In this document: one piece after another, positions 3,081 to 17,751 of the stretch
How the letters are laid out: every line of letters begins with the position of its first letter
Numbering within the stretch: position 1 is the stretch's first letter
From: a virus
Length of the DNA: 33,330 nucleotides
IMG/VR virus record: IMGVR_UViG_3300030118_001028
Coordinates: 1-33,330 of that record
Strand: one strand, 5' to 3'
Position numbers and translations under genes: made by a program
The notes under the pieces: generated by a model
Databases searched by the model: none
Told to the model about the DNA's origin: nothing
The model's input: only the letters and a program-made list of their open reading frames with translations

Positions 3081-3425
3081 ATGACTAAAGGGATAAATTT
3101 GCGTATTAATGTATCAAGAATTGACAAGAGTAAACTATTTCACGGTAAAAAAGGTGTGTATTTAGACATGACTTTGTTTTTAAATGATGAACTTAGTCAA
3201 GATGGAAACAATGGTTTGATCAAGCAGAGTCAGACGAAACAAGAGAGAGAAGACAAGGTTCAAGCTCGAATCTTGGGTGACGCAAAAATATTTTGGACAT
3301 CTGAAAAAAATGCAGAAGTCAAAAAATCAGAAGAAGTAGAAAAAAAGAAACAACCAGAGAAGCAAGAACAAAAAGAGGAACAAAAATTAAAAGACACGTT
3401 TTTTGATGATGATATTCCATTCTAA
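3081..3425 (+). CDS. SSB-like single-stranded DNA-binding protein with acidic tip
   Basis: This 114-residue protein has an N-terminal part (1-72) that reads as a small beta barrel (NLRINVSRIDKSKLF, GVYLDMTLFLND, QARILGDAKIFW). A low-complexity Lys/Glu linker covers about residues 73-105. The end is T-F-F-D-D-D-I-P-F, the same kind of acidic D-D-D-I-P-F tip that bacterial SSB uses to recruit partner proteins. It sits directly behind the ERF annealing gene with a good ribosome site (AGGAG at 3071-3075). The barrel is not classical SSB in sequence, so the function rests on the tip, linker and context. Confidence 0.75.
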   Translation: MTKGINLRINVSRIDKSKLFHGKKGVYLDMTLFLNDELSQDGNNGLIKQSQTKQEREDKVQARILGDAKIFWTSEKNAEVKKSEEVEKKKQPEKQEQKEEQKLKDTFFDDDIPF

Positions 3426-3432
3426 TTAAAAA

Positions 3433-3449
3433 CCCCCCACAAAGGGGGG
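3433..3449. terminator. C6/G6 hairpin after the SSB-like gene; partial terminator or pause site
   Basis: CCCCCC-ACAAA-GGGGGG forms a perfect 6-bp GC stem 8 bases after the SSB stop. On the + strand no T tract follows; instead an A run precedes it, so the U-tract geometry is right only for transcription on the minus strand, where I see no genes. On the + strand it could act as a pause, an attenuator or an mRNA 3' end stabiliser. Confidence 0.5.
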
Positions 3450-3465
3450 GATAAACCATAGGAGA

Positions 3466-3498
3466 GTTTTTTGGTCAGTCGGGAGAACTGACGAAAAC
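3466..3498 (+). promoter_or_regulatory. hairpin in the leader of the Cro-like gene (motif A)
   Basis: GTCAGT (3474-3479) pairs with ACTGAC (3487-3492) around the loop CGGGAGA; flanking GTTTT (3466-3470) and AAAAC (3494-3498) extend the stem. It lies 24 bases upstream of the Cro-like start. The arms and loop opening closely resemble the outer arms of the structured element at 3760-3881 (GTTAGT-CGGG... ACTAAC-AAAA), with a C:G pair replaced by T:A. The loop holds a GGGAG sequence that could also compete as a ribosome-like site. Confidence 0.55.
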
Positions 3499-3521
3499 AA
3501 TATATCATAGGATGAATATTA

Positions 3522-3722
3522 ATGAAATTTTTACATATAGGTAATCAAGTGTGTAAAGCACAGAACAGACTTGGTATAAGTAACAGGGAATTTGCGCGTA
3601 GAGCAAAGACTTCACCGCAGCAAATACTTAGATGGCGTAATAATGCCAACATGAAATTTCACACTATAGAAAGAGTTTGTGAATCTCTAGATATAGATAT
3701 TTATAACTTTTTGCAAAATTAG
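3522..3722 (+). CDS. Cro/CI-type helix-turn-helix regulator
   Basis: This is a 66-residue, single-domain HTH_3-type DNA-binding protein. The five-helix fold is readable: helix 1 (IGNQVCKAQNRL), the HTH (SNREFARRAKTSPQQILRWRNN, about residues 21-42), then T-I-E-R-V-C-E-S-L-D-I-D-I-Y-N-F. It has no oligomerisation or cleavage domain, so it is Cro-like rather than a full CI repressor. AGGA at 3509-3512 gives a 9-base spacing to ATG 3522. A perfect 7-bp palindrome (TGTTTAC...GTAAACA, 3723-3742) begins right behind the stop and similar sites sit before 2319 and 8895. It probably controls the early transcription units. Confidence 0.85.
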   Translation: MKFLHIGNQVCKAQNRLGISNREFARRAKTSPQQILRWRNNANMKFHTIERVCESLDIDIYNFLQN

Positions 3723-3753
3723 TGTTTACTTTATTGTAAACATTTGATACAAA
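3723..3753 (+). promoter_or_regulatory. perfect palindromic operator overlapping a promoter-like pair
   Basis: TGTTTAC-tttatt-GTAAACA (3723-3742) is a perfect inverted repeat with 7-bp arms, the best member of the operator family. TTTACT at 3725-3730 is 17 bases from TACAAA at 3748-3753, which fits a sigma-70-like promoter reading into the structured non-coding stretch that follows. The operator would cover its -35 box. Confidence 0.55.
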
Positions 3754-3912
3754 GTCCAAGTTAGTCGGGTGTAAGGATTGAGAATTAATAAACTCAATAG
3801 CTCTAGTGACCCCTAGATAAGCACCCCTGATCAATTTGGCTATTGTGACGGATCACGACCTAGATTCTAAATACGACTAACAAAAAGCCACTAAGCAGAG
3901 AAATCCCTTAGA
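3754..3912 (+). ncRNA. candidate structured RNA (cis leader or small RNA) with multibranch fold
   Basis: There is no gene between 3723 and 3972. GTTAGTCG (3760-3767) pairs with CGACTAAC (3874-3881), closing a domain. Inside it are the hairpins ATTGAG/CTCAAT (3777-3782 with 3793-3798), TCTAG/CTAGA (3802-3806 with 3813-3817) and GTGA/TCAC (3845-3848 with 3853-3856), plus GGTG/CACC (3768-3771 with 3822-3825). A further CTAAG/CTTAG hairpin lies at 3891-3911. This density of nested complementary arms, behind a promoter-like pair, suggests a functional RNA. A replication-origin structure is an alternative. It does not fold as a tRNA. Confidence 0.5.
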
Positions 3913-3972
3913 ACGCATTTGTACGGTCAGTATAAAGGGTTATATTATCTAAAATAAATAGGGAGTATGAAA

Positions 3973-4218
3973 ATGTCACAATGTCAAAGGTTAATACGTC
4001 ATTTGAAAGATGGTCATTCTATTAATATGGAAAATGCTAGAATGATCTATTCCATAGGTAGGTTGCCAGCAAGAATTCATGAAATCAAAAACAAACCAGA
4101 GTATCGCAGTCAAATAAAAGGCTACGTATTTGAAGATAAAATAGTTACTCATAAAAATCAGTTTCAGGAAAAGTATCGCGTAAAAGAATATTGGTTGAGA
4201 AAACTAAATGATTCTTAA
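3973..4218 (+). CDS. winged-helix DNA-binding protein (HTH_39-like)
   Basis: I choose ATG 3973, because GGGAG at 3961-3965 is 7 bases before it but only one base before the ATG at 3967. The 81-residue product starts S-Q-C-Q-R-L-I-R-H-L-K-D-G-H-S-I and continues with N-M-E-N-A-R-M-I-Y-S-I-G-R-L-P-A-R-I-H-E-I-K. This matches small phage winged-helix proteins (HTH_39 pattern: a helix ending L-K-x-G-x-S-I, a second helix, then the R-L-x-A-R-I-x-E-I recognition helix). A wing of hydrophobic strands follows. It overlaps the next gene by 11 bases and may form the DNA-binding half of a split replication initiator. Confidence 0.7.
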   Translation: MSQCQRLIRHLKDGHSINMENARMIYSIGRLPARIHEIKNKPEYRSQIKGYVFEDKIVTHKNQFQEKYRVKEYWLRKLNDS

Positions 4219-4591
4219 ATCTGGTAAAGAATGGACTCCAGCTGAAGAAGATGTAATACAATGGCAACGATCATACCCGAGGGTAGATGTTCATAGAGAA
4301 TTAGCTGCAATGGATGAATGGTTGTACGCTAATCCAAAACGCAGAAAGACCCAAACAGGAATTAAAAGATTTGTTAATGGTTGGTTAAATCGTGCGGATC
4401 AAACAGGAGGCCAATCCCCATTTACCAAACAATCTAATCAATCTTCTATTCGTGATCGCAGCTTAGCAATGTCCTTAACAGATATTTCATGGTTAGACGA
4501 AGCAGACAAAGAGAGTATGCGTAAATATTATCTTAACAAATGCGGATATTATTGGGATAATGGCTGGCATGGTAATTATCCAGGTAAATAA
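4208..4591 (+). CDS. helicase-loader or replisome-organiser C-terminal-like protein
   Basis: This 127-residue protein carries the motif run W-T-P-A-E-E-D-V-I-x-W-x-x-x-Y-P-x-V-D-V-x-x-E-L-x-x-M-x-x-W-L-x-x-N-P-x-R-R-K-T-x-x-G-I-x-R-F-V-x-x-W-L-N-R-A (residues 9-62). This run is seen at the C-terminus of many phage replication-organiser proteins. A polar linker follows, and then a second helical part ending Y-Y-x-x-x-W-H-G-N-Y. In typical members this domain follows a winged helix in the same chain; here the winged helix is the separate overlapping gene upstream. The role in loading the host helicase is inference. Confidence 0.6.
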   Translation: MILKSGKEWTPAEEDVIQWQRSYPRVDVHRELAAMDEWLYANPKRRKTQTGIKRFVNGWLNRADQTGGQSPFTKQSNQSSIRDRSLAMSLTDISWLDEADKESMRKYYLNKCGYYWDNGWHGNYPGK

Positions 4592-4594
4592 ATT

Positions 4595-4855
4595 TTGTCG
4601 AAGGCTAGTGTTGCCAGAAAACTAATTTATAAAGGACGCAGAAAAAATATGATTTCTGGTGATCTTTACACAATTCGAGAATTAAGTGATTTAAGTGGAT
4701 TAAGTGTTGCCACTCTCGATTATAGATTAAAAGAACTTGATTACGTTACTGACGCGCTTCTGTGCGAGAAATACCGCAAAACAAAACCAAAACCAACCAA
4801 AGGGCTGGCTCAAAGCATATCTCGTACTTGGTTAAAAAAGAGGTTAGTGAAGTGA
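4595..4855 (+). CDS. small HTH DNA-binding protein
   Basis: This 86-residue protein reads from TTG 4595. ATG 4649 is the alternative start (AGGA at 4633-4636, a long spacing). A helix-turn-helix is visible in T-I-R-E-L-S-D-L-S-G-L-S-V-A-T-L-D-Y-R-L-K-E-L (about residues 26-49), of the MerR or winged type. A basic tail is rich in Lys/Pro (KYRKTKPKPTKG, KKRLVK). It sits between the replication-organiser-like gene and the NinB-like gene and overlaps the latter (GTGA at 4852-4855). It could be a regulator or an origin-binding factor. Confidence 0.6.
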   Translation: MSKASVARKLIYKGRRKNMISGDLYTIRELSDLSGLSVATLDYRLKELDYVTDALLCEKYRKTKPKPTKGLAQSISRTWLKKRLVK

Positions 4856-5292
4856 CCAGCTTTTATTTATATAGATCTAAAAAAGATTATCAAGATAAAA
4901 AAGAATATCTTGAAAGACATATTTATGATTGGAACTTTGCAACTCCCCTTAAGATAGAACTTAAACCATATAGAAATCCAAGATCAATATCTCAAAATTC
5001 TTTGTTTCATAAATGGTGTAAAGAAATTAGCGATAAGTTTATTGAACGCGTAGAGAACGCAAGTCCAGAAAATATAAAGTTGTATTTAAAGCATATGTTT
5101 TTAGGAACGGAAAGTCTTGTTTTAGGTAACACCGTAATAAAAGATCAAGTTAAGCAATCGAGCAAGTTAGATGTTGGTGAGATGTTACATTTTATGGATC
5201 AAATATACCATTGGTCGTTAGATCATGGGATCATTTTGACTGTTCCAGAAGACAGCGATTATCAAAAACAAAAGGCGTTGCAGAATGAGTAG
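4852..5292 (+). CDS. ninB: NinB-like recombination protein
   Basis: I place the start at GTG 4852, which overlaps the preceding stop (GTGA) and has AAGAGG 8 bases upstream; the longer frame from 4762 would overlap the upstream gene by 94 bases. The product is then 146 residues, which as I recall is also the length of lambda NinB. The family core is clear: P-L-K-I-E-L-K-P-Y-R-N-P-R-S-I-S-Q-N-S-L-F-H-K-W-C-K-E-I (about residues 36-63), K-x-Y-L-K-x-M-F-L and a C-terminal L-x-x-x-E-M-x-x-F-M-D-Q-I-Y. NinB binds single-stranded DNA and modulates annealing-type recombination, consistent with the ERF and SSB-like genes upstream. Confidence 0.78.
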   Translation: MTSFYLYRSKKDYQDKKEYLERHIYDWNFATPLKIELKPYRNPRSISQNSLFHKWCKEISDKFIERVENASPENIKLYLKHMFLGTESLVLGNTVIKDQVKQSSKLDVGEMLHFMDQIYHWSLDHGIILTVPEDSDYQKQKALQNE

Positions 5293-6463
5293 ATCACATT
5301 GGGAATCTTTGTTGCAGTTCTGCCGCAGTGAAGCACAAGAAAGAAATGTCAAAGCAATCTTAGAACACGGATCGATTGTTAACGCAGCAAAAGCTTTAGG
5401 TCTTAATCGTAGAACTGTTGGTAAGTCAATAAAGATCGTGGAGAAATATGCGGCTTCTCAAGGTATAAGTGTTGATCGAGATTTAACGAGGCAGACCGCA
5501 GAAGGATACTATGCAAAGAGAATAAGCACCGCATATAAAGATGATGGTTCTGTTGCTTTGCAATGGGTGATTCAAGAGCCAGAAAGAAGGAGCATAGAGG
5601 AAAAAATAAATGCGTTGTTAGAGGGAATACAAGATGACATCAGAGGAGTAAAAGACCCTGTCCCCTTTGAGTCACAATCTGATAATAATTATTTAGCGAT
5701 GTATATACTAGGTGATCATCATTTTGGCATGTTGGCAGACAGCGAAACAAAATTAGATGATTCAGACTGGGACGTAAAAATAGCAACGAAAGTTATTATT
5801 GCGGCTGTAGAGAAATTGACAAATCGAGTGAACAACGCTTCGGTTGGTGTTCTTCTTAACGTGGGAGATTTTTTTCATAACAATGACAGCACTAATTTGA
5901 CAGCGAGTGGTAATAGATTAGATGTTGACACTCGCATTGGTAAAACATTTAAACTTGCAGGAAGACTATTTCAAATACTGATCGAAGCAATGCTACGTGT
6001 TCACAAACAAGTTTTGATAATTAATGTGAGAGGAAATCATGACTTTGACATGGCTTGTCATTTAAGCAGTTGTTTAGAGCTTATTTATGAAAAAGAACCC
6101 AGAGTAACAATATTGCCTAACTATTCAATGTTTCTTCATTATGAATGGGGTAATAATCTTTTTGTTTTTCATCATGGTCATCGTGTTAAACATGAACAGA
6201 TTTTACAAACGGTTGTGAAACACTTAGACAAAGAATGGTCGCAGTGTAAAAATAGATATTGTCACTTAGGACATATTCATCATCAATTAAAAAGAGAAGT
6301 ATCCTCGATGCACTTTGAACATTGGGGTTCACTTGTCGCAACGGATCAATGGCACGATGATCAAGGTTATGGAGCAGAGAGATCGATGAGCGCAGTCATT
6401 TATCATAAACAACATGGAGAAGATAGTCGCGTCAAAATTACGATGGATCAATTACGTGTCTGA
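5285..6463 (+). CDS. calcineurin-like metallophosphoesterase with N-terminal HTH
   Basis: This 392-residue protein overlaps the NinB-like stop by 8 bases. Residues about 8-55 contain an HTH (I-V-N-A-A-K-A-L-G-L-N-R-R-T-V-G-K-S-I-K). Residues 140-360 hold the full set of two-metal phosphoesterase motifs: G-D-H-H (143-146), G-D-F-F-H (194-198), G-N-H-D (250-253), H-H-G-H (296-299) and G-H-I-H-H (329-333). All metal ligands appear present, so it should be an active nuclease or phosphatase acting on DNA or RNA ends. The DNA-binding domain and the recombination neighbours argue for a DNA substrate; an exact reaction cannot be read from sequence. Confidence 0.85.
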   Translation: MSRSHWESLLQFCRSEAQERNVKAILEHGSIVNAAKALGLNRRTVGKSIKIVEKYAASQGISVDRDLTRQTAEGYYAKRISTAYKDDGSVALQWVIQEPERRSIEEKINALLEGIQDDIRGVKDPVPFESQSDNNYLAMYILGDHHFGMLADSETKLDDSDWDVKIATKVIIAAVEKLTNRVNNASVGVLLNVGDFFHNNDSTNLTASGNRLDVDTRIGKTFKLAGRLFQILIEAMLRVHKQVLIINVRGNHDFDMACHLSSCLELIYEKEPRVTILPNYSMFLHYEWGNNLFVFHHGHRVKHEQILQTVVKHLDKEWSQCKNRYCHLGHIHHQLKREVSSMHFEHWGSLVATDQWHDDQGYGAERSMSAVIYHKQHGEDSRVKITMDQLRV

Positions 6464-8824: not shown

Positions 8825-8832
8825 AAAAACAG

Positions 8833-8861
8833 GTTTACATTTTTGTAAATATCTATAAAGT
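8833..8861 (+). promoter_or_regulatory. operator GTTTAC-N6-GTAAAT with promoter-like boxes
   Basis: TTTACA-tttt-TGTAAA (8834-8849) is a perfect palindrome and fits the GTTTAC-N6-GTAAAC operator family (8833-8850). TTTACA may also serve as a -35 box, 16 bases from TAAAGT (8856-8861). A weaker copy GGTTAC-atttat-TAAAAC follows at 8865-8882, just before the ribosome site (GGGAG 8883-8887) of the next gene. Confidence 0.5.
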
Positions 8862-10367: not shown

Positions 10368-10394
10368 AACCCCGTGCAATGCGGGGTTTTTTTT
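10368..10394 (+). terminator. rho-independent terminator ending the early region
   Basis: AACCCCG (10368-10374) pairs with CGGGGTT (10382-10388) around TGCAATG, running into eight Ts (10387-10394). This is the strongest terminator by eye in the window, and it separates the early block from the control region before the terminase genes. Confidence 0.93.
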
Positions 10395-17727: not shown

Positions 17728-17751
17728 GGGGGGCTTGTCCCCCCTTTATTT
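17728..17751 (+). terminator. hairpin terminator or attenuator behind the capsid gene
   Basis: GGGGGG-CTTGT-CCCCCC (17728-17744) is a perfect 6-bp stem followed by TTTATTT. It lies 8 bases after the capsid stop and before the next gene's ribosome site (GAGG at 17752-17755). Partial termination here would keep capsid mRNA in excess over tail mRNA. Confidence 0.75.

Follow-up and report, generated by a model that had tools for sequence, protein, structure and literature searches.

A conserved, two-domain pseudoknotted RNA ahead of the replication operon of uncultured tailed phages, with a predicted antisense RNA upstream

Positions 3760–3941 (plus strand) of a 33,330-nucleotide viral record from IMG/VR (hereafter the window, meaning the whole stretch analysed) belong, beyond reasonable doubt, to a family of conserved structured RNAs found in a group of uncultured tailed phages, and the family is new to Rfam. 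The RNA folds into a multi-helix domain closed by stem P1, which is linked by a covarying pseudoknot to a second domain formed by P7, P8 and the 3′ GGGUU (Table 1). The family is large and strongly covarying and occurs in at least 150 uncultured viral contigs, typically directly 3′ of a Cro-like gene; where copies were counted, 16 of 16 genome records had exactly one.

The structure was read from covariation in an alignment of 33 members that leaves out the window. Two-sided changes are seen in 31 of its 44 pairs, with 96% of cells paired and a covariation score of 0.461, compared with 0.175 for shuffled and at most 0.076 for slid pairings. A covariance model, R1, built from 33 other phage contigs (191 positions; 37 nested pairs distributed over two domains, the pseudoknot being additional), matches the window at 3759–3941 with 67.7 bits (E = 1.1e-17); because R1 was built without the window, this match is an independent test of its membership. 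With 56 aligned members, the window now included, 37 of the 44 pairs show two-sided changes, in 458 cells, and the score is 0.533 (0.189 shuffled, at most 0.074 slid). Parsimony on a tree derived from unpaired columns only counts 177 two-sided changes in 34 pairs, as against 11–23 for slid pairings; compensatory base changes in this RNA exceed the phylogenetic expectation. The subfamily of the window covaries by itself, in 17 of 40 pairs. An earlier note, made from the sequence alone, had proposed a multibranch RNA here that should covary among homologous phage intergenic regions, as it decisively does, and fold better than dinucleotide-shuffled sequence. The plus strand of 3755–3892 folds at −31.5 kcal/mol versus −23.2 kcal/mol for such shuffles (z −2.5; 2 of 200 shuffles as good), and the minus strand of the same stretch folds no better than its shuffles (z +0.7). 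Over the full element the folding energy is modest, with z −1.7 for the window and a family mean of −1.2, so that energy alone would miss the RNA and covariation decides.

Starting from the 5′ end, the closing helix P1 (GTTAGTC with GACTAAC in the DNA) and several hairpins within it confirm what the earlier note had recognized. The element had been taken to end at 3885; the match runs on to 3941 and brings in two further helices and two pseudoknots, and 3760–3885 is the first domain only. The loop of P4 (UGACCC, 3807–3812) is preserved in almost all members, and the P3 stem of the close relative L001 carries a single change, from G-C to G-U. Although PK1 was left out of the covariance model, 100% of sequences pair in its columns, and the pairing has been rebuilt four ways across the family: CGGU/ACCG, UGGC/GCCA (the window), UGAC/GUCA (L077) and CAGU/ACUG (L103). 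In the second domain, a hairpin with at least 5 perfect pairs is found at the P8 site in 64 of 94 unique members, compared with 9% in shuffles. The 3′ GGGUU is a candidate to form a second pseudoknot, PK2, with CC at 3905–3906; as both sides are nearly invariant, the pairing is not proven by covariation. An alternative partner for this end, the P4 loop UGACCC with GGGUUA, was read by eye, is nearly invariant too and fails in L038. Conservation among relatives falls off directly 3′ of GGGUU. Two variants are seen in the first domain: L110 and L208, otherwise different members, share a 20-nucleotide insertion, GAUGAGCGAGAAUGAUCGCC, within P4, and L026, L074, L107 and others have a ‘type B’ RNA in which a longer two-part arm (CAUGAAUUGACAUG..GGGUGGCG..) stands in place of P3.

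Table 1 Features of the leader RNA and its surroundings in the window
Feature	Positions	Strand	Basis or remark
Predicted antisense small RNA of about 65 nt, opposite the Cro-like mRNA 5′ leader	3428–3492 (3492 to 3428)	−	Promoter, hairpin, terminator
Intrinsic terminator CCCCCC..GGGGGG + U-tract	3428–3450	−	Terminator search
CUCCUAUGGU, near-invariant, between hairpin and terminator	3455–3464	−	Alignment A6
5′ hairpin of minus-strand RNA, C-rich loop, UUCCCCCGA in most relatives	3474–3492	−	Covarying stem
Extended −10 TGATATATT of minus-strand RNA	3499–3507	−	TGnTAnnnT
Cro/C1-type helix-turn-helix gene, 66 aa	3522–3722	+	Pfam HTH_26, 3.5e-7
Perfect dyad TGTTTAC-N6-GTAAACA	3723–3742	.	Overlaps −35; 0 mismatches, 7-bp arms
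Leader promoter: −35 TTTACT (3725–3730), 17 nt, −10 TACAAA (3748–3753)	3725–3753	+	Predicted start about 3760
Structured leader RNA, whole element	3760–3941	+	5′ end at predicted transcription start; covariance match and conservation drop after GGGUU
P1 5′ arm GUUAGUC	3760–3766	+	Pairs with 3875–3881; 6/6 pairs with two-sided changes
P2 5′ arm GGGUGU	3767–3772	+	Pairs with GCACCC 3821–3826; helix of 56-member alignment
P3 hairpin AUUGAG/CUCAAU	3777–3782/3793–3798 (whole 3777–3798)	+	100% of cells paired; 6/6 pairs with two-sided changes
P4 hairpin CUAG/CUAG	3803–3806/3813–3816 (whole 3803–3816)	+	Helix of 56-member alignment
P2 3′ arm GCACCC	3821–3826	+	56-member alignment
P5 hairpin CUG/CGG + CAAU/AUUG	3827–3829/3849–3851 + 3832–3835/3842–3845 (whole 3827–3851)	+	Window pairing by eye from covariance alignment
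P1 3′ arm GACUAAC	3875–3881	+	Covariance model, 56-member alignment
PK1 AGCCA with UGGCU of P5 loop	3886–3890/3837–3841	+	Covarying pseudoknot
P7 hairpin CUAAG/CUUAG	3891–3895/3907–3911 (whole 3891–3911)	+	100% paired
P8 hairpin UUUGUAC/GUAUAAA, loop GGUCA	3918–3924/3930–3936 (whole 3918–3936)	+	Separate check
Conserved 3′ end GGGUU; candidate PK2 with CC 3905–3906	3937–3941	+	94% paired, almost invariant
First gene behind leader, winged helix-turn-helix (HTH_39)	3967–4218	+	Domain match
Operon behind leader: 4208, 4643, NinB-like 4852, DNA repair exonuclease 5285	4208–6463	+	Same order in relatives

With the Cro-like, HTH_39 and ERF proteins as queries, one close relative was reached (L001/L011); its intergenic RNA differs from that of the window at 4 of 130 sites. 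The neighbouring exonuclease led to 80 viral loci, about 65% identical, and the conserved RNA emerged from a comparison of the sequences 3′ of the Cro-like stop codon. A sequence pattern made from it matched at least 120 viral contigs, with all 116 newly fetched loci confirmed by profile, and a pattern from the diverged subfamily of the window found 33 contigs, 33 of 33 confirmed by the covariance model. Phages without the RNA despite having the same exonuclease and Cro-like gene include L017 and L025, and the RNA is not present in the Roseobacter phages that carry the nearest terminase (57% identity). It is absent from 50,697 phage records, with 0 matches in cultured phages. Among 84,980 genomes there is one true match, on a 5.8-kb contig of an Opitutales MAG that is probably a binned phage; a match in a Flavobacteriales MAG was a chance occurrence of the pattern within a protein gene. 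At the gathering score, Rfam 15 gave 0 matches in the whole window and 10 relatives, and searches by E-value or with permissive settings returned chance-level matches only; stretches that look TPP-like or B12-like by eye find no support in Rfam. The manA, wcaG, PhotoRC-II and Ocean-V motifs of a 2010 survey likewise come only or mainly from environmental and phage sequence (PMC2864571); the comparison covered the survey motifs with Rfam numbers, which were in the searched library and do not match the leader RNA, and in the survey table Ocean-VI carries no such number.

The position of the RNA is constant, always before the replication/recombination operon, and the order ERF, SSB-like, Cro-like, RNA, 4208-like, NinB, exonuclease is kept in many relatives. 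Behind the leader, the 4208 gene encodes a helix-turn-helix protein with weak similarity to a replisome organizer, and a NinG-like gene is also found. The promoter-like pair that the earlier note had placed just upstream of the element is there, with two thirds of the consensus matched; a consensus promoter scan did not list it. Of 80 unique upstream regions, 40 have a −35-like box, T[TAG]TA[CT], with the same spacing to P1; these are the members with the layout of the window, in which the RNA begins about 7 bases past the promoter-like −10. In relatives with a second layout, a terminator closes the Cro-like gene and is followed by a new promoter, about 100 nucleotides of variable hairpin and then the RNA; two of these (L093 and L206) carry, between promoter and RNA, short repeats in direct orientation (GATAACGTCTT or TATAGTGTCT, for example), which are possibly bound by a protein. 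Transcription likely starts at about 3760. That 3760–3941 is the 5′ leader of the replication/recombination operon transcript is strongly suggested, because its 5′ end sits where a promoter 7 nucleotides upstream would start an RNA and because no intrinsic terminator follows: none was found for kilobases 3′ of the RNA, and GGGUU has no U-tract after it.

The dyad overlapping the −35 box is a candidate operator, probably for the Cro-like protein. Matches to it at up to 3 mismatches number 11 in the window, compared with 3.1 expected, and similar dyads lie in three intergenic promoter-like regions, at 2289–2308 (before ERF), 3723–3742 (before the RNA) and 8832–8851 (before ORF 8895), which may together be operators of the same protein. 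Further features of the neighbourhood are a small protein at 3081–3425, whose C-terminal DDDIPF resembles the acidic tail of single-stranded DNA-binding proteins and which has no SSB family match, and a long tail ORF that runs off the end of the window (33330) and repeats a peptide of its start (3–200), by which the record seems circularly closed or terminally redundant. In L012, L037, L033 and others, a hairpin GG[C/U]GAGGCUUGCCGA[G/A]CC lies 3′ of the RNA, immediately before AUAGGAG and the next start codon; its outer pair covaries (GGC/GCC, GGU/ACC), and the window is without it.

The RNA probably controls transcription of the phage replication genes. Our leading reading, to which we give a probability of roughly 0.4, is that it may act in cis, as a leader which alters RNA polymerase during elongation; in this it would resemble HK022 put RNA, from which it differs in fold. 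The leader would fold while emerging from the polymerase and act in cis on the elongation complex, and the modified polymerase would then read through pauses and terminators of the long one-strand operon; in a phage with no recognizable N or Q protein, the leader would fill the role that put has in HK022. Placed behind an early promoter, the put RNA, of about 70 nucleotides and two stem-loops, by itself makes the polymerase read through, with no phage protein needed (PMC9378689). This reading is argued from where the RNA lies, how large its fold is, the terminators inside a long operon on one strand and the lack of N- or Q-like proteins in the PHROG scans, all of which resemble HK022. As with put, the RNA lies behind a predicted early promoter, with promoter-like boxes at a fixed distance in the layout of the window, and would lead the replication operon. 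Among the window proteins scanned against PHROGs, none resembled N, Q, CI or an integrase; such a scan could overlook an antiterminator protein that is short or diverged. Inside the downstream unit, the plus strand has intrinsic terminators at 10389, ahead of the late genes, and at 17745, behind the major capsid gene, and several relatives have them at similar places. The late genes may have promoters of their own, and a terminator behind the capsid gene can simply set gene dosage.

The likeness to put, and to its early-leader site putL in particular, is that of a structured RNA directly behind the early promoter, in cis before the early genes and with terminators further on, in a phage without a dedicated antitermination protein. 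However, put confers terminator resistance through the β′ zinc-binding domain of RNA polymerase with about 70 nucleotides, two stem-loops and two copies per genome, whereas the leader described here has about 180 nucleotides in two domains and two pseudoknots, of which covariation proves one; it occurs once per genome and has no sequence likeness to put. Size and architecture do not fit put RNA proper. The EAR (epsC) motif of Bacillales (RF01735) is reported to be a processive antiterminator. It is likewise a structured cis RNA of similar size, but is found in bacterial exopolysaccharide operons, and no Rfam match was obtained here at any threshold used. A boxA behind the RNA was considered and rejected, the best match scoring 5.82 against 5.32 in shuffles.

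As the 5′ UTR, the RNA could instead control translation or stability of the downstream mRNA; for instance, it might bind a protein of phage or host, as in autoregulation, or shield the 5′ end against decay. The closing of P1 at, or close to, the first transcribed nucleotide recalls 5′ stabilizers, and a second covarying hairpin sits right at the next ribosome-binding site in many relatives. Yet the ribosome-binding site of the gene that follows is unsequestered, tens of bases past the element, the conserved fold with its invariant loops is larger than a stabilizer requires, and relatives differ in their downstream genes. We regard this as the strongest competitor, and as rather unlikely. The sharp 3′ boundary at GGGUU, the P4 loop kept in almost every member and the compact pseudoknotted fold would also suit an RNA that is processed off the transcript and acts in trans, binding a host protein, the polymerase or another RNA as a takeover factor or anti-defence decoy; the 3′ end, however, has no terminator, and the constant position in cis before the replication operon, at one copy per genome, makes such a role improbable.

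Adjacent to a replisome-organizer-like gene and to recombination genes, the RNA might also be an origin transcript, serving as primer or in transcriptional activation of the origin. In lambda, transcription through the origin is required, and this counts in favour; against it, no iteron-like repeats were found around the element in the window and nothing ties the structure to the DNA, so that we give this role little credence. A riboswitch for a small metabolite is very improbable: for all the conserved junctions and loops, the leader has no recognizable expression platform (terminator or ribosome-site switch), no terminator within or just behind it, a single fixed context of replication rather than metabolic genes and no Rfam riboswitch match.

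Upstream of the Cro-like gene, a second element probably runs in the opposite direction. The earlier note had described its hairpin correctly, with GTCAGT (3474–3479) pairing with ACTGAC (3487–3492), and had taken it for a related copy of the downstream structure. GTYAGTCGGG (at most 1 mismatch) is found twice with 1.18 expected, which cannot show relatedness; the C-to-T and G-to-A difference between the hairpins, offered as a compensatory change, is a chance resemblance that carries no weight, and the length shared by the two elements is about 4.8 nucleotides within a genome versus 4.5 between genomes (uncorrected for relatedness). The two are different, separately conserved elements, each covarying internally, and the suggestion that one factor binds both is unsupported. 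Of the proposal of a small RNA or cis-regulatory RNA, the downstream part stands as a conserved paired multibranch candidate; the upstream hairpin most plausibly belongs to a small RNA of the minus strand.

The minus strand is argued from the terminator and the promoter. Of 73 unique loci, 72 have TGnTAnnnT at the extended −10 site (shuffles, 0.127), a minus-strand terminator occupies the 3428–3450 place in 7 of 7 genomes examined, and the whole 3428–3507 stretch is conserved in relatives. In the hairpin, 90.7% of cells are paired and 4 of 5 pairs show two-sided changes (score 0.529 versus 0.215); the near-invariant CUCCUAUGG segment is complementary to a Shine-Dalgarno-type sequence. Few CCATAGGAG sites occur elsewhere, and trans targets predicted by duplex energy do not rise above background. 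At the level of sequence, the element has its own promoter and intrinsic terminator opposite a regulated mRNA, as OOP does. Lying over the Cro-like mRNA leader, the RNA would probably adjust how much Cro is made, in the way that OOP acts on cII in lambda. Similar to OOP and the c4 antisense RNA, it would be a short antisense RNA in the phage immunity/replication region that covers the start of the mRNA of a regulatory gene and ends in an intrinsic terminator (for OOP, compare PMC5869508). Its predicted target is the leader of the Cro-like gene, whereas that of OOP is the 3′ part of cII; it differs from both in having its own sequence, its own C-rich hairpin loop and its own CUCCUAUGG, and it does not match the c4 family (RF01695).

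A structured leader RNA is a known kind of element in phages, and the likeliest mechanism here has a precedent, while the fold has none in Rfam. Were the RNA to act on RNA polymerase, antitermination by RNA alone would have a third solution, in a phage group without recognizable N or Q, and the frequency of RNA-only antitermination in phages would become directly testable in vitro. More speculatively, and in our view doubtfully, the RNA may be the founding example of a class of processive antiterminators that need no protein, its pseudoknotted fold of two domains being unlike those of put and EAR; together with the minus-strand RNA it would then make the early switch largely RNA-based in a widespread group of uncultured phages. 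The paired minus-strand RNA would give this switch another regulator, independent of the first.
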